A stretch of DNA of 34,138 nucleotides from positions 1 to 34,138 of the IMG/VR virus record IMGVR_UViG_3300031651_000011; one strand, written 5' to 3'. Each line of letters starts with the position of its first letter. The first letter of the stretch is position 1. Source of the stretch: a virus. Shown one piece after another: positions 25,782-32,520 of the stretch. A program made the translations under genes and the position numbers. The notes below the pieces were generated by a model. That model searched no databases and had not been told where the DNA came from. It worked only from the letters and a program-made list of their open reading frames with translations.

Positions 25782-27074
25782 TTAGTATTGCCAGGCCTCC
25801 GCCTCTCCCTTATCCACTACCCTGTCTGGCTCGTCCAGGTCTGCTATGATGTAGCGTTCTGCTGCCATCAGGTGATAATGCGATTCGTTCTCTATCTCAT
25901 CGGTGGGCTGGTATCTGTCATCCAGCTTTCGGGAAAATGATTGCTTCTCGTCCAGGTAGCCCAATAGGTCTTTGAACACCATAATCCTGTTGAGCTTGTG
26001 CCAAGCGAAAACCTTAGCTATTTGAGTCTCTACCTTGCGGTTCATCTCCGGTGGTTCGCTTATCGCCCAGCCGTGAGCATCATAAGCCTGCCTGATTTCC
26101 TCTTCCTGGTGGCTTCCCCCCACTCTCTTCACCACGGTATAGCCTTCAGTGATTCTCTTAAACTCAGCTACATTTTCAGCTACTGACTTACCTGGCCCCG
26201 GGCGATATTCATGGAAAGCCCACAGAAGTCCAGTCCCCGGGTCCTCAGCGAAGAAGATTGCAGCGGGGTTGGCAGCGCCGAAGTCGTGCCCTACATAGAT
26301 TAGCCAGTTTTTAGGTATCTCGAAGCTCCCCTTTAAGCAGTGCTGGGGGTTAAACGAGGAGTAGATAAGCCCTTCGGGTTTATCGTATCTCCCGCGGTAG
26401 AGCATATTGAATTTCCATGAAGGAAGCCTTGATCGGACTCTCTCAAATTCAGTCTTCGGGAAAGCTGGGTTCATTGTGGAGTCGAATATGATTACATCGT
26501 AATCAGGATCGCCAGCTTCCCACAAGTCAAAAACCTCAGTCTTAAACCAGCCCAGACAATAAAGCGAGGTAGTGAACAGAGTCCTTCCCTGGTAAATAGA
26601 AAGACGCCTCTGCACGGCCTCCCAAGTATCCCGCCTGAACTGTTTTTGCCCTGGTTCATCAAGCCAGGCTCCCTTAGCCGTGGCAGACTCCAGAGACTCA
26701 GGGTTTGTTGCACTGCCGAATATCACCCTGGTCTTGCCGTCATGGAAGGTGAAAGCCTTTTTATAATCCGAGTAAGTACCCAGGTGGAGCAGGTCAACAA
26801 ATAGAGTCAGGAACTCAGGCAGCATCTTCAGCTCTAGCAGAGGGAAGGTAGAAGTTACGGCTAGATAGTCCCCAGACCCGCAGTTCTTGATTTCCCGATA
26901 CAGCCAGTCTGGTCCAAAAACAGTCTTACCCCCCTGTGTGCCAGCCTGCATAGCGATGAACCTTTTAATGCTCTGCCATGTCTTAGACTGCCCAGGGTGG
27001 AAGTTCAGATGTATATCGTTGCCTATGATTTCCCGGTAGACGGGTCTATCTTCCTGGGCTACTGCCTGAGCCAT
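25782..27074 (-). CDS. terL: Terminase large subunit
   Basis: This 430-residue DNA-packaging motor has a Walker A G45-T-Q-G-G-K-T51, Walker B/catalytic Glu in ATAKGAWLDEPGQKQFRRD (D139-E140), and a nuclease domain starting with the RNase-H-like D264 in YVGHDFGAANPAAIFF. It uses ATP to push DNA into the prohead and cuts the concatemer. The start overlaps the small subunit by 29 bases and is preceded by GAGGAG. The length is on the short side for the family, but all key motifs are present. Confidence 0.9.
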   Translation of the reverse strand: MAQAVAQEDRPVYREIIGNDIHLNFHPGQSKTWQSIKRFIAMQAGTQGGKTVFGPDWLYREIKNCGSGDYLAVTSTFPLLELKMLPEFLTLFVDLLHLGTYSDYKKAFTFHDGKTRVIFGSATNPESLESATAKGAWLDEPGQKQFRRDTWEAVQRRLSIYQGRTLFTTSLYCLGWFKTEVFDLWEAGDPDYDVIIFDSTMNPAFPKTEFERVRSRLPSWKFNMLYRGRYDKPEGLIYSSFNPQHCLKGSFEIPKNWLIYVGHDFGAANPAAIFFAEDPGTGLLWAFHEYRPGPGKSVAENVAEFKRITEGYTVVKRVGGSHQEEEIRQAYDAHGWAISEPPEMNRKVETQIAKVFAWHKLNRIMVFKDLLGYLDEKQSFSRKLDDRYQPTDEIENESHYHLMAAERYIIADLDEPDRVVDKGEAEAWQY

Positions 27075-27411
27075 TATTCTCCTCTGTTACATGAGCCACT
27101 ATCTTTTCGACTACGATTGGCATGTTCGGGTCTCCACCTATAGGCTGAGTAACCTTGCCCTCTGTGCGCTCAAATAGTAAGCTAAGGTCGCCTGAGTTCT
27201 TCAGTGCTCGTTTTGCTAGATTCTTAGCCAGGTAATAAGCTAAGGATTTGTCTTCTGCTAGTAGCTCCCTCAGAGCCTCGCTGACATACTTTATGTTAGG
27301 TGGTCTCCCCTTCGGGTTGCCCGATTGCCCTGGCTTAAAACCATGCTCCTTGATGTTTGCCAGGGAGTTCGGATGCTTGCCCTTAGCATATTTAGATTTC
27401 CGTTTCGCCAT
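27046..27411 (-). CDS. Terminase small subunit-like protein (DUF5681-like)
   Basis: This 121-residue protein contains GFKPGQSGNPKGRPPNIKYV near residues 24-43, a signature of DUF5681 proteins that often precede the large terminase and are regarded as small-subunit candidates. Helices around 44-85 (EALRELLAEDKSLAYYLAKN) could form the DNA-recognition part. The final 30 residues overlap the large subunit gene. The start at 27411 has a GAGG site and lies inside a 25-codon frame. Confidence 0.75.
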   Translation of the reverse strand: MAKRKSKYAKGKHPNSLANIKEHGFKPGQSGNPKGRPPNIKYVSEALRELLAEDKSLAYYLAKNLAKRALKNSGDLSLLFERTEGKVTQPIGGDPNMPIVVEKIVAHVTEENNGSGSSPGR

Positions 27412-27469
27412 CTTGTTCCTCTAAAGTCGTCGAGTCCTCAGTCCATGTAAAGTTATCGTCAAATTCCAT
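27392..27469 (-). CDS. Possible 25-codon acidic leader peptide
   Basis: An ATG at 27469 with a GAGGT site gives MEFDDNFTWTEDSTTLEEQD and five more residues, ending inside the terminase small-subunit gene. It may be a real small peptide or a translational-coupling element that opens the downstream start. The very short length leaves this uncertain. Confidence 0.3.
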   Translation of the reverse strand: MEFDDNFTWTEDSTTLEEQDGETEI

Positions 27470-27651
27470 CTTTTACCTCAGGACACTCAGCATGAACACG
27501 CCGAATGTCCAAGATTCTGTCGCCGGCCACGACAATAGGCTTCTGCTCTATGTAATACGGAGACTGAGCCTTAATCGGTTGTCCACATTTAGAACACTTG
27601 AATTCGTAATTGCTTCGATATATTCTAGGTTCGTCTTTTAGGCTCCTTCAT
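27459..27651 (-). pseudogene. Small zinc-ribbon gene with an apparent frameshift
   Basis: The ATG at 27651 overlaps the upstream stop as ATGA and has AGGAG at good spacing. Its frame stops after eight codons. Skipping one A in the AAAA run near codon 5-6 joins it to an open frame of about 55 codons reading SNYEFKCSKCGQPIKAQSPY, continuing through ILDIRRVHAECPEVKDGI with further Cys and His ligands. That frame has no other standard start. The CxxC...C pattern predicts a zinc ribbon. Either a one-base insertion killed or corrupted the gene, or the frame is reached by programmed slippage. Confidence 0.6.
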
Positions 27652-27911
27652 ATTACCGCTCCTATTATCCAAGCTATCATGCCTGTTACCAAGATAATGA
27701 AAGATGCAAATCCAGGGACTCGCCCTATGTTGTAGTAGTGATGTTCCTTCCTCAGAGACTTCAATAAGTTCTCATCGTCATTTCCTCCATCCCAAGGCTC
27801 ATACCTAGCCTTCCGTATGCAAAAGCCATCACTAAACCCCTCAATTAGAGCGTGCCACTCCTGGTGAGTATCCAGGAAGGTAGAAGGCTTAATGCCTTTC
27901 AGGAAGCCCAT
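27648..27911 (-). CDS. Small protein with C-terminal membrane segment
   Basis: This 87-residue protein's hydrophilic N-terminal two-thirds has many aromatic and acidic residues (DTHQEWHALIEGFSDGFCIR, EHHYYNIGRVP). A membrane helix lies at about residues 68-87 (FASFIILVTGMIAWIIGAVI). It overlaps the holin-like gene by one base, suggesting a lysis- or membrane-related pair. No family was recognised. Confidence 0.6.
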   Translation of the reverse strand: MGFLKGIKPSTFLDTHQEWHALIEGFSDGFCIRKARYEPWDGGNDDENLLKSLRKEHHYYNIGRVPGFASFIILVTGMIAWIIGAVI

Positions 27912-28114
27912 TAGTCTTGCTCCTTCTTCTCCTTGATGTGCTGGACCGTCCTGTCACCAAACCACCACAGGATGCAGGTAGCAGCCAGGCCCAGGAACCA
28001 TTGAGGAGCAGCAATTCCCTCAACCACAACCTGGGCAATTACGGCAGCAAAGATTATTGTAACTGCCGGTCTGACTATTGCTCGGAATATCTCTACTATT
28101 GGGTTTGTGTTCAT
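27911..28114 (-). CDS. Holin-like protein (3TM-holin type)
   Basis: The product has 67 residues. FRAIVRPAVTIIFAAVIAQV and PQWFLGLAATCILWWFGDRT match the layout of the three-segment phage holin family (PF11351-like): an R-A-x-x-R-P entry to the first helix and an F-W-F-G-D/E-R end. The ATG at 28114 has GAGGG at five bases; the GTG at 28120 directly abuts it and is not used. It sits near the beginning of the late operon. It would form the membrane lesion of lysis, but no endolysin was identified nearby. Confidence 0.65.
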   Translation of the reverse strand: MNTNPIVEIFRAIVRPAVTIIFAAVIAQVVVEGIAAPQWFLGLAATCILWWFGDRTVQHIKEKKEQD

Positions 28115-28126
28115 GTACACCCTCTA

Positions 28127-28234
28127 TTATCTACGCCTGCTTCGGCTTGACCTGTGATGGCGAATATGACGATAGGTATGCCGTTCTATACTACGCCATG
28201 CGTCGATGATGAAACATAATGGTGGGCTGCTCAT
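28127..28234 (-). CDS. 35-residue basic peptide, first gene after the late terminator
   Basis: The ATG at 28234 has a strong GGAGGT site, placed about 15 bases after the terminator T-run. The product (MSSPPLCFIIDAWRSIERHT, then a His/Arg/Ser-rich tail) has no recognised family. The good ribosome site and tight spacing to the holin-like gene (13 bases) support translation. Its place suggests that it opens the late operon. Confidence 0.55.
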   Translation of the reverse strand: MSSPPLCFIIDAWRSIERHTYRHIRHHRSSRSRRR

Positions 28235-28252
28235 GTTTACCTCCCTAAATGC

Positions 28253-28273
28253 AAAAACCACCCGAAAGGGCGG
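28253..28273 (-). terminator. Rho-independent terminator between tRNA and late genes
   Basis: On the minus strand, CCGCCC-TTTC-GGGTGG forms a 6-bp stem with one G-U pair, followed by five T. It is 15 bases after the tRNA 3' end and just before the ribosome site of the first late gene. Late transcription from the upstream promoter would therefore need readthrough or antitermination. Confidence 0.8.
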
Positions 28274-28287
28274 CTCATTTAATTGCT

Positions 28288-28363
28288 TGGTGGCGGGCCT
28301 GGGAGTCGAACCCAGTCCTCAAGTTAATGGGACTTGCGACTTAACCGCTTTGTCCTGCCCGCT
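28288..28363 (-). tRNA. Atypical tRNA, CAT anticodon (Met-like), CCA encoded
   Basis: It is exactly 76 nt with CCA encoded. The acceptor pairs GCGGGC with GCCCGC but has A1-C72 unpaired. The D arm is GAC/GTC with A14, G18-G19 and A21. The anticodon stem is CAAGT/ACTTG (perfect), with loop CCCATTA. The T arm is CTGGG-TTCGACT-CCCAG (perfect). Departures from the norm are A8 for U8, C33 for U33, T37 and a short variable loop. The anticodon would read CAU. A1-C72 and A11-T24 recall initiator tRNAs, but the three G-C pairs of an initiator anticodon stem are missing. It could be functional, degenerate or a structural mimic. Confidence 0.7.
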
Positions 28364-28383
28364 ACAGAGTAATAATTTTGCAG

Positions 28384-28486
28384 CGATTTACCAAACCGAT
28401 TTACAGATTCCCGACACGGCGATTTTGGTAATAATATTACCACGATTTCGACACGATTTTGTGACGAAAATGTGACGATTTTGGCT
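28384..28486. repeat. CGATTT repeat array with 11-bp phasing
   Basis: CGATTT-type units begin at 28384, 28397, 28420, 28443, 28454, 28465 (as CGAAAA) and 28476. The last four are exact 11-mers in tandem of consensus ACGATTTTGTG, and the earlier gaps are 23, 23 and 13 bases. A perfect 15-bp palindrome GGTAATAATATTACC lies at 28427-28441 between units. The regular spacing puts the sites on one DNA face, as for an iteron or operator array. Confidence 0.75.
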
Positions 28487-28500
28487 CTAAAATGACTTGA

Positions 28501-28554
28501 GGGCATACTAAATGCCCACTTTGTCAAGATACCATTAAGTATAAAGTTTGTCAA
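28501..28554 (-). promoter_or_regulatory. Late-type promoter with downstream palindrome
   Basis: TTGACA (28549-28554) is followed after 17 bases by TATCTT (28526-28531). A second TTGACA at 28522-28527 overlaps the -10. Immediately downstream lies the perfect 6-bp inverted repeat GGGCAT-5 nt-ATGCCC (28501-28517), where a repressor or activator could bind. The promoter points to the repeat array, the tRNA and the late genes. Confidence 0.6.
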
Positions 28555-29035
28555 GTTTTTGCGAAAACTGTTGTTTTTCGCCAGTTTTTGACGCATCCCA
28601 AACCTCTCTCTTCCACCGGCTAAAGTCTATCCGCTTCCGTTTCTTTCCCTTGAGATACATCAGGATCGCCCGGGCTCCATCGCTCAGGTTACTAAGAGTC
28701 CTGCCATCCTCGACCTGGGTGATGAGGAGCTCCCCCTTGTTGTCCACAGTTTCGAGCCTAGCCTCTATCTCGGCAATCGCTATGCCCGCTTTGACAAAGT
28801 AAGCCTCTGAGTGAAGCTGTTTTGATTCGCCTGATTCCTCATGCCTTGTCACCCAATCCCCAGCCCTGAATATATCGGCGTGGTCTAGAATCCAGAGGAT
28901 TTGTCGCGGGCACCAGCGTATCTCCCCGTAGTGATACCATTCTTTTTCCGCTTTTTTCCCATTTTCAGTATACGAATACCATTTGCCAGGGCAGCCCTTC
29001 CAGCGTTTACACTTTCGGCAGTCAAGCTCAGCCAC
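28535..29035 (-). CDS. Cysteine-rich protein, candidate late regulator (Q-like position)
   Basis: This 166-residue protein's N-terminus has a C6-x-x-C9-x5-C15 cluster and a further Cys near 42 (EIRWCPRQILWILDHADIFR), suggesting a zinc-binding fold. The middle is acidic and helical; the C-terminus is basic (YLKGKKRKRIDFSRWKREVW). It starts with GTG at 29035, preceded by AGGGAG, overlapping the preceding gene. It lies immediately upstream of a promoter, a tRNA and a terminator preceding the late operon, the position of Q-type antiterminators. There is no recognised sequence match to Q; the role is inferred. Confidence 0.6.
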   Translation of the reverse strand: MAELDCRKCKRWKGCPGKWYSYTENGKKAEKEWYHYGEIRWCPRQILWILDHADIFRAGDWVTRHEESGESKQLHSEAYFVKAGIAIAEIEARLETVDNKGELLITQVEDGRTLSNLSDGARAILMYLKGKKRKRIDFSRWKREVWDASKTGEKQQFSQKLDKLYT

Positions 29036-29222
29036 GCCCCATTCTCCCTTGAGGCTTCTGGCGCATGAGCTTATCTATCTCTTCGAGGCTTTCGAGCTTC
29101 CCCTGGACTTCAATAGCCTGCTTCTTGCTCCCCGGTGGTTTGAAGAAGATGCCGAGCTCCTTTCTGCAATAACGAGCCAGGTTCCTCTTGCTCTGTATTG
29201 ATAGGCCTTCCCAGAGTGCCAT
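29028..29222 (-). CDS. Small helical phage protein
   Basis: This 64-residue protein begins with MALWEGLSIQSKRNLARYCR, a helix with a DNA-binding look. It continues with KPPGSKKQAIEVQGKLESLE and ends in a basic tail. The ATG at 29222 has AGGAGGGGG eight bases upstream and overlaps the LuxR-type gene's stop (TGATG). It also overlaps the cysteine-rich gene by eight bases, so the three are one translational unit. The function is unknown. Confidence 0.65.
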   Translation of the reverse strand: MALWEGLSIQSKRNLARYCRKELGIFFKPPGSKKQAIEVQGKLESLEEIDKLMRQKPQGRMGRG

Positions 29223-29455
29223 CAGAACCACCCCCTCCTCAGAGCGTAGGAAGTGGCCTGAACTCTGTTACGAACTCCTAACTTCTGGTAGATATGCTGG
29301 ACATGATTTTTGACTGTCTGATGCCCTATTCCCATGTGGCAGGCGATTTCCTTGTTCTGCCAGCCCCGGCACATGTAGCGCAGAACCTCAGTTTCCCTTC
29401 TGGTGAGTGGCTTCCGTCTTATCCCCAGGATTCGCTCTAATAGCTCTTTAATCAT
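29222..29455 (-). CDS. LuxR/GerE-type HTH regulator
   Basis: This 77-residue protein is almost entirely a GerE-type HTH (residues about 16-77): LTRRETEVLRYMCRGWQNKE, IACHMGIGHQTVKNHVQHIY, QKLGVRNRVQA. It has no receiver or sensor domain. It starts seven bases after the T-run of a strong terminator with no ribosome site visible, so expression probably depends on readthrough or on unusual initiation. It leads the gene trio before the late control region and may regulate that promoter; this is inference. Confidence 0.8.
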   Translation of the reverse strand: MIKELLERILGIRRKPLTRRETEVLRYMCRGWQNKEIACHMGIGHQTVKNHVQHIYQKLGVRNRVQATSYALRRGWF

Positions 29456-29461
29456 CGTAAT

Positions 29462-29525
29462 AAAAAAAGAGGCGAACCCCCAGGTTTCCCCGGTTTCCCC
29501 GGTTTCCCCTGGTAAAGCTCGCCTC
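29462..29525 (-). terminator. Long terminator with internal 9-bp repeats
   Basis: On the minus strand, GAGGCGA pairs with TCGCCTC, followed by seven T. The loop contains an inner CCAGG/CCTGG pairing and three consecutive GGGGAAACC-type units. It lies between the early module and the LuxR-type gene. The repeats in the apical part are not needed for termination and may bind a protein or RNA. Confidence 0.8.
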
Positions 29526-29768: not shown

Positions 29769-30275
29769 TTATATCAATAGCTTTGTTTCCTTCTTCAGCC
29801 AAGATAATACTCGGACTGTATGAAAGCCCCCTGGTAGTAACAGCCACAACTTCTCCCGATTAAACCCACTTACCATAGGAGCGCAAATATCGAGCCATAA
29901 GATATTGTCAATATTTTCTTGGAAGTATGCTTTTAATGCCCTGCGAAAAGTAACATCAGAGGCAATACAGCCCGACAACCCATAGCCTTTTAGCTTCGTG
30001 CCTACCCGGGTAATGTTATAGGGCGGGTCTAAAACTACCCAATCCCAATGTCTCTTGTCTGTCTTGATAAAGTCCTTAACATCACAGTTCAGTGTAGCAT
30101 TATTGTGTTCAATGTCTACTCGTTCATTGCCTATCAGGCTTGAACCGCTGAAAAGGTGAAGCACCATGCCGGCAATATGAGACTCTATAATACCCTGAAC
30201 AGTTTTGGTGAACGCCCCAGGGTAAGAGGAATTATTAAACCCCATCCCCAAGACTTCAAATTCAAATCTTCTCAT
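29769..30275 (-). CDS. DNA methyltransferase (DPPY type)
   Basis: This 168-residue protein has the catalytic motif D83-P-P-Y86 in WVVLDPPYNITR, typical of N6-adenine or N4-cytosine methyltransferases. Motif I-like VLHLFSGSSLIGNERVDIEH lies before it, and LWLLLPGGFHTVRVLSWLKK closes the fold. It is short and has no target-recognition domain, so it is a minimal phage enzyme. Its ATG overlaps the nuclease gene's stop (ATGA). It may modify phage DNA to resist host restriction; target sequence unknown. Confidence 0.8.
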   Translation of the reverse strand: MRRFEFEVLGMGFNNSSYPGAFTKTVQGIIESHIAGMVLHLFSGSSLIGNERVDIEHNNATLNCDVKDFIKTDKRHWDWVVLDPPYNITRVGTKLKGYGLSGCIASDVTFRRALKAYFQENIDNILWLDICAPMVSGFNREKLWLLLPGGFHTVRVLSWLKKETKLLI

Positions 30276-30583
30276 ATCCTCAGAATCTCAGCGATCCCCT
30301 CAATGTCCCCAGGGCGCCACAGGTAAACCTCGGCACCACAGGCTTTCAGGTCGTCAAAGGTTTCCTGCTGCTCCGGGGTCATTTTCCCCTTCTCGCTCTT
30401 GAGTTCTGCAAAAATCACCCGCTTTTGTTCCCTATTCGTCAGTAATAAGTCTAGCGTGCCCTTCGGGGAATGTATTGATGTCCAGGTGAATCGGAAACGC
30501 CAGTGGTATATCTTACAGAGATCCCGGACCCACTCCCTCAGGTCTCGCTCGGTGACGGGGATGCGGTTAATCTGCCTTTGCAT
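30272..30583 (-). CDS. VRR-NUC domain endonuclease
   Basis: This 103-residue protein has the PD-(D/E)xK core: SPKGTLDLLLTN (Asp near 45), VIFAELKSEKGKMTPEQQET (Glu-x-Lys near 60-62) and AEVYLWRPGDIEGIAEIL. This is the classic VRR-NUC layout. Phage VRR-NUC proteins cut branched or flap DNA in replication and recombination. The ATG at 30583 is five bases from an AGGGG site; GTG and ATG codons at 30589 and 30586 are alternatives. It overlaps the preceding gene. Confidence 0.85.
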   Translation of the reverse strand: MQRQINRIPVTERDLREWVRDLCKIYHWRFRFTWTSIHSPKGTLDLLLTNREQKRVIFAELKSEKGKMTPEQQETFDDLKACGAEVYLWRPGDIEGIAEILRI

Positions 30584-31049
30584 CATCACCCCTTGGTAAT
30601 TGAAGATTATGGTCTAGCATGGCTTGATAAAGTGTTTTACCCTGGCCTGTTTCCATATAAGGTAAGAATATCTGGTCAATAGTCACCATTTCGGCCTCTA
30701 GGATTGCCACTTGAGCCCGGACCCAATCTTTAAGTATTCTCCAGGCCACCCTACTTGCTTGTTCCTTTATCTTGACCTTTCGCTGCTCCTGGTATTTCGT
30801 GTCCCATGGCCTACGATTAGAGGATGCCAGTTGTTTAAGAAGGACTGCTTCAACTTTGCCCATGTTAGCGGGAAGACGAAAGGGAGTATCCCCGTAAGGC
30901 GTGGTGATGATAAATGCCAATCCCACCGGCTGGTTATCCTGGTAGTCCATCAGAATATGCGTGGCGCCATGAGCCACTAATATGCCCTGAATTTCGCCAA
31001 TAGACTTCAAGGCCGCTACTGTCGTAGTGTAATTAGCTATCTTGGTCAC
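30567..31049 (-). CDS. Conserved-type phage protein in the replication module
   Basis: This 160-residue protein starts with GTG at 31049, overlapping the upstream stop as GTGA, with a GAAGGGG site. The frame continues 48 codons upstream, but only in the alternative frame of the preceding gene. The N-terminal half has mixed beta strands (ILMDYQDNQPVGLAFIITTP, TPFRLPANMGKVEAVLLKQL). The C-terminal half is a long amphipathic helix (VAWRILKDWVRAQVAILEAE) ending FLPYME. It may be a single-stranded-DNA or replication accessory protein; no firm family was identified. Confidence 0.65.
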   Translation of the reverse strand: MTKIANYTTTVAALKSIGEIQGILVAHGATHILMDYQDNQPVGLAFIITTPYGDTPFRLPANMGKVEAVLLKQLASSNRRPWDTKYQEQRKVKIKEQASRVAWRILKDWVRAQVAILEAEMVTIDQIFLPYMETGQGKTLYQAMLDHNLQLPRGDDAKAD

Positions 31050-31809: not shown

Positions 31810-32520
31810 TCAGTGGGAGATAGGTTTGCCTGCCTTCTTACCATATTTCGACCAATGCTTCAGGATGCCCCCGATATATCCCCAATCAGGATGATTGGCC
31901 CGGCACGCTTCTCTAATCGCATCAACAACCCACCAGGGAGAGTATCGCCCACAGGCAATCTTTATTTCTTCTTCTACATCTTCTGAGACAGTGGCTCCGA
32001 GCAAAATGTTTTCCTGATAAAACTCTATTGCTTTTTTTATTTTACTTTCTGAGTTAAAAGACTGAACTAAACTTTCTTCTTGTTTAGTTTCTTCTTTATC
32101 TTTAACTTTATCTTTAGTTTTATCTTTAACTTTAACTTGTGTTAGACCTACTCCGTCTTTACTCCGTCCTAACTCTGGAGTAAAAGGTGGGATTTGCGAT
32201 GCACTTTCCTTATCTTTTCGCAATCCTGGCTGATGTTTTTCAAAGTTTTTCATCAATAAATAGTGCCCACCGGGCGCCGAATAACGCAAAATTAAGCCCT
32301 GGTGTTCCAGTTCCACCAGATATTTTTCAATGGTTTGGGCTTTCATTGAGCGCCGGGGGAAGACAATACTTTTCACAGTTTGAGCATCACCATACATGCG
32401 TCCTTCGCAATCGAGATGCGTTATAAGCCAGGTAAATAACAGCCTAACTGTATCGCTCGACAGAGCGTCTACCTTCTCGTCCAGGCTGATAGCCTTGCTT
32501 ACAAATCTACCGCGAGCCAT
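31810..32520 (-). CDS. DnaD-like replication initiation protein
   Basis: The product has 236 residues. The N-terminal domain (about 1-95) is a winged helix: LDEKVDALSSDTVRLLFTWL, FPRRSMKAQTIEKYLVELEH, GLILRYSAPGGHYLLMKNF. A charged linker of lysine-aspartate repeats (about 125-150) precedes a C-terminal DnaD-like domain (about 160-232): YQENILLGATVSEDVEEEI and PDWGYIGGILKHWSKYGK. This domain order matches phage replisome organisers. The linker is encoded by a short TTTATCTTT-type repeat. It probably binds the origin and recruits the helicase. Confidence 0.75.
   Translation of the reverse strand: MARGRFVSKAISLDEKVDALSSDTVRLLFTWLITHLDCEGRMYGDAQTVKSIVFPRRSMKAQTIEKYLVELEHQGLILRYSAPGGHYLLMKNFEKHQPGLRKDKESASQIPPFTPELGRSKDGVGLTQVKVKDKTKDKVKDKEETKQEESLVQSFNSESKIKKAIEFYQENILLGATVSEDVEEEIKIACGRYSPWWVVDAIREACRANHPDWGYIGGILKHWSKYGKKAGKPISH

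Follow-up and report, generated by a model that had tools for sequence, protein, structure and literature searches.

In bacteriophage lambda, the gene of the late regulator Q ends beside the pR' promoter, which has a TTGACx-N17 form, and the terminator tR' stands before the late genes. Q circuits carry a -10-like element in the initially transcribed region that causes a sigma-dependent pause (PMC6606751), and in lambda this pause lies at +16/17. A second, -35-like element is reported to be needed for Q recruitment in lambda and to be missing from the late promoters of the other lambdoid phages (PMC6606751). Lambda Q, the Q proteins of phages 21 and 82 (21Q and 82Q) and AlpA of Pseudomonas aeruginosa seem to work by a common mechanism although their sequences are not similar, and more such regulators are expected; 82Q has no solved structure (PMC9371919). 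AlpA is a small regulator that bypasses an intrinsic terminator just past its target promoter (PMC9371919). A structured RNA element can also act on termination, as described for the put RNA of phage HK022, which works on early genes and needs no protein (PMC9378689). The locus described here is probably a late-gene control region working like lambda Q/pR'/tR', a reading that we hold with moderate confidence.

The DNA analysed is a viral record of 34 kb, referred to as the window, in which the annotated genes lie on the minus strand, as do the elements of the control region. Replication-type genes come first, among them a DnaD-like gene (31810-32520) and a VRR-NUC gene (30272-30589), with a methyltransferase gene (29769-30275) grouped with them. 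They are followed by a LuxR-type HTH gene (29222-29455), by the gene of a small protein, p67 (29028-29231), and by the GTG-started gene of a 166-aa protein with cysteines at C6, C9, C15 and C42 (28535-29035), whose start is overlapped by p67. This four-cysteine protein is the candidate late regulator, and its gene occupies the end of the early operon. Beyond the promoter and terminator region, the first late ribosome site (AGGGAGG and ATG 28234; 28232-28246) opens a 35-aa Arg-rich ORF reaching to about 28127. The late operon then starts with a 69-aa membrane-type protein, an 87-aa protein, a DUF5681 protein and the terminase large subunit (25782-28120), and head and tail genes lie further on. 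Two tandem repeats were noted elsewhere in the window, namely a short CCCCGGTTT repeat (x3.4) at 29479-29509 and a TCTTTA-type repeat (x7.7) at 32093-32138 within the DnaD-like gene.

As in lambda, the regulator gene ends beside a promoter. The -35 hexamer TTGACA (28549-28554) lies within the last codons of the gene and is separated by a spacer of 17 from the -10 hexamer TATCTT (28526-28531), which has an extended TG. A second, -35-like TTGACA (28522-28527) follows 27 nt after the first and overlaps the -10. In lambda pR' (sequence from J02459), two copies of TTGACT stand 28 apart, at locus positions 753 and 781, and the second also overlaps the -10, in the same register as the second TTGACA of the phages studied here. 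Protein and pattern scans of IMG/VR recovered about 20 further contigs from uncultured phages, referred to by L numbers, with regulator homologues of 39-94% pairwise identity; the same kinds of scan found none in GTDB genome contigs or INPHARED phages. L026 served as the reference of the regulator alignment (A5). A contig matched by the hairpin pattern, L006, looks unrelated.

Single-promoter scans by themselves are hardly above chance (3 found where 2.1 would be expected); conservation of the promoter across relatives is far above it. With a promoter defined as TTGACA, 16-18 nt and TAnnnT, between 60 nt before and 300 nt after the stop codon, 17 of 21 regulator-gene ends carry one; among 238 other ORF ends of these contigs, taken as controls, 2 do. 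The full set of promoter, hairpin at the transcript start and terminator is present at 13 of the 21 and at none of the 238 controls. The 21 members are related and are not independent events, yet their proteins diverge to about 40% identity, and their promoters, spacers and hairpins differ. TG precedes the -10 in 11 of 18 promoters. The second TTGACA stands 27-28 nt from the first in 10 of 18 (28 in most relatives) and 31 nt away in two more; several members lack it, as do late promoters of lambdoid phages other than lambda (PMC6606751). The TGA stop codon of the regulator gene forms part of the -35 hexamer in six contigs (L013, L017, L025, L026, L032, L035). In L014 and L027 the promoter is found 0.9-1 kb further down, past inserted genes, and in L033 and L037 the cassette is absent. 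L005 has kept it though the genes that follow differ. The conserved cassette consists of the four-cysteine gene, a sigma70-type promoter, a 5' hairpin, one or more terminators and the late ribosome site. All of the parts named by the sequence-only reading (regulator gene, promoter, repeat array, tRNA and a terminator before the late ribosome site) could be located in the window, and the order that it proposed, from regulator gene through promoter and terminator to late operon, is strongly supported by the relatives and the control counts. The array and the tRNA, which it had taken as parts of the switch, are optional inserts missing from most relatives.

The initially transcribed region differs from that of lambda in having a hairpin within the first 20 nt and no recognisable equivalent of the -10-like element. 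No lambda-type -10-like hexamer was seen by eye at +1 to +6, where AGTGGG or a similar sequence occurs instead. In the window the hairpin GGGCAT(ttagt)ATGCCC (28501-28517) starts at about +3, and 15 of the 17 members examined have it starting at +0 to +6. The 3' arm, TAYGCC, is nearly invariant and the 5' arm covaries to match it, giving the pairs GGGCGT/ACGCCC, GGGCAT/ATGCCC, GGCGTA/TACGCC, GGGGC/GCCCC and GGCA/TGCC. The consensus of the elemental pause is TAYG with a G ten bases back (PMC7876045). In most relatives this combination is located at +13 to +18, near the lambda pause; the window itself matches imperfectly, with C rather than G at -10 of the consensus.

The window terminator, GAGCCGCCC(TTTC)GGGTGGTTT TTG (28255-28276), has 9 pairs followed by TTTTTG and ends 8-10 nt before AGGGAGG. 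Leaders of the relatives vary in length and in the number of terminators, and the distance from the start is often only 50-60 nt, which is unlike lambda. L003, L010 and L013 have a single terminator, located 10-15 nt past the hairpin with the ribosome site about 10 nt further on, and L005 has a similarly formed one with a shorter T run that was missed by the scan. Two terminators stand in tandem in L016, L017 and L025, several are mixed with other hairpins in L023 and L035, and in L015 a weak terminator (T1) is followed by a tRNA and a second terminator (T2). The scan found no simple terminator in L032 and L026. The terminase large subunit is encoded downstream in the window and in 11 relatives, with differing TerL families. 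Since several leaders carry two or more terminators, control of read-through is the likeliest logic of the region, and it is difficult to see why terminators would be stacked right ahead of essential late genes if read-through were not regulated. Weak promoter-like matches deeper in the late operon of several members count against a Q-type reading.

The four cysteines are conserved in 20 of 21 regulator homologues, the sole aligned exception being that of L033, which has no cysteines. Profile searches found no match for the family in Pfam, PHROGs, NCBIfam or PDB. Alignment with lambda Q failed (hhalign probability 0.5%), and the regulator profile did not recover PDB entries 7ubm and 4mo1, though lambda Q itself finds both. 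Two AlphaFold models were compared with PDB and one with BFVD, without a credible match; the second, of the L026 member (pLDDT 77.7), is helical, with the cysteine-rich segment predicted at the N-terminus and helices following at 72-84, 88-98, 108-117 and 127-149. Profile and Foldseek searches for a relationship to 21Q, 82Q or AlpA gave no PDB match, with the limit that a single-chain model of pLDDT 78 may let a polymerase-bound form escape. The general logic is shared with 21Q and 82Q; in contrast to those systems, no sequence or fold match and no common binding repeat in the spacer were found. The spacers between -35 and -10 hold no binding-site-like motif common across members and resemble one another only in the extended -10 TG. 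For AlpA, a binding element is known and the protein carries a C-terminal helix-turn-helix; in these phages neither was found. The earlier suggestion of a different regulator family agrees with these searches, whereas a zinc site as a tie to lambda Q is unsupported. Membership of the Q family itself is unsupported, with both the sequence comparison and the search for a -10-like element negative.

Between hairpin and terminator, the window carries two inserts. One is an AAATCG array at 11-nt spacing with a palindrome, TAATATTATTA / TAATATTATTACC (28364-28487); 11-nt-spaced ACGATTTT units occur at 28442-28494. Six copies of AAATCG lie within 120 nt in the window, against at most 2 per 120 nt in relatives other than L002. 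The array, iteron-like in appearance, is better conserved between window and L002 (99.2% over 124 nt) than the regulator gene (92%) or the adjoining tRNA (84%). It was rejected as a shared operator, being present only in these two. The other insert is a tRNA with a CAU anticodon (28288-28363), with A11:U24, A8, C33 and an encoded CCA. It can be drawn as a full cloverleaf whose sole mismatch is A1.C72; because the isolated strand adopts another fold at its free-energy minimum, the cloverleaf rests on covarying relatives and not on energy. ARAGORN made no call for the window copy and called the orthologues in L002 (763-836) and L044 (665-739) tRNA-Met(CAU); a further related tRNA lies at about 5777-5851 of L015. 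All four share CAU, the 1:72 mismatch, A11:U24, A8 and an AGGA variable loop, with C33 noted in the window copy. Bacterial initiator tRNA is marked by a 1:72 mismatch, A11:U24, a CAU anticodon and three G:C pairs in the anticodon stem. The three G:C pairs are absent from all four tRNAs and the other three features are present, so that by sequence the tRNA is initiator-like in part and could be charged with Met or be of the Ile2 type. Phage tRNAs that evade tRNA-cutting defences have been described (PMC10264068), and one may speculate that the CAU tRNA is one of them. The window and L002 have both array and tRNA, L015 has the tRNA but no array, and in L044 the tRNA is on a contig fragment in which the cassette was not found.

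Rfam searches of the window leader and eight relatives found no riboswitch and no T-box, and the tRNA alone reached the gathering score. Right after the CAU tRNA of L044, at about 740-890, is a second tRNA-like sequence with additional sequence between its halves, which may be an interrupted tRNA. Other leaders contain different strongly folded RNAs (L014 3985-4180, L023 5800-6130, L026 5500-5570, L029 5535-5670 and L035 2360-2620), and the several that were scanned had no Rfam match. Pieces of leader RNA are common to L014/L035, L023/L035, L023/L026 and L026/L035. The leader seems to be a hot spot for RNA inserts.

The window tRNA ends 11 nt before the terminator, as is usual for a tRNA transcription unit, and the promoter, tRNA and terminator might form an ordinary unit of this kind that lies by chance ahead of the late genes. 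This is highly improbable, as promoter, hairpin and terminator are present without any tRNA in most relatives, and L003, L005, L010, L013, L016-L019 and L025 refute it as a whole explanation. RNA alone, or host factors, might alternatively bring about antitermination, the 5' hairpin being put- or nut-like and the four-cysteine protein having some other role. The hairpin stem and the following TCAAGTCATTTTAG are indeed identical between L015 and L003/L010, despite a different promoter in L015 and a regulator only about 40% identical to that of the window. The hairpin sequence is not conserved in other members, however; Rfam recognised no known element, and a constitutive element yields no switch. 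We regard control by RNA without the protein as quite improbable. Unlike put, the site comes with a conserved protein gene.

Two further explanations assign the proteins other roles. The four-cysteine protein could be a DNA-binding activator or repressor acting at TTGACAA direct repeats, with the terminator leaking a fixed fraction, which would suit a small protein that is helical in the model, and also the two TTGACAA copies that most members carry at a fixed distance. Those copies fall on the -35 and on the -35-like element of lambda type, and a pure activator does not explain why terminators are kept, doubled and multiplied before late genes, making this reading possible though unlikely. 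It is also rather unlikely that p67 is the antiterminator in place of the four-cysteine protein, or that both act in one complex. Nearly all relatives encode a homologue of p67, an orphan with no family match, upstream of the regulator, and p67 is a possible partner of the regulator; it often lies at a greater distance from the promoter (L026, L018) and is less well conserved. The LuxR-type HTH gene was rejected as late regulator, being present in only 4 of 22 contigs tested.

The region likely works like a Q switch, and antitermination itself is what we infer from its arrangement. In such a switch, the promoter would fire constitutively and polymerase would halt transiently about 15 nt in, then terminate after a leader of 60-300 nt. 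As the 166-aa protein accumulates, it would load on polymerase at the promoter-proximal site, perhaps with p67, and the loaded polymerase would pass the terminators and transcribe the terminase, head and tail genes. The array and CAU tRNA of the window leader would be made both before and after the switch. Put forward more tentatively, it is possible that an unrelated family has independently taken the Q job, with the -35-like element kept, an elemental pause some 15 nt into the transcript, within the 5' hairpin, replacing the sigma-dependent -10-like pause, and the leader docking extra RNA genes such as the initiator-like tRNA.

The compact 60-nt leader of some relatives makes a Q-like switch easy to test. 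Such a switch predicts that polymerase pauses at TAY|G, near +15/16, and that read-through depends on the protein. If true, the four-cysteine family would be another Q-type regulator, found in uncultured phages by anatomy alone.
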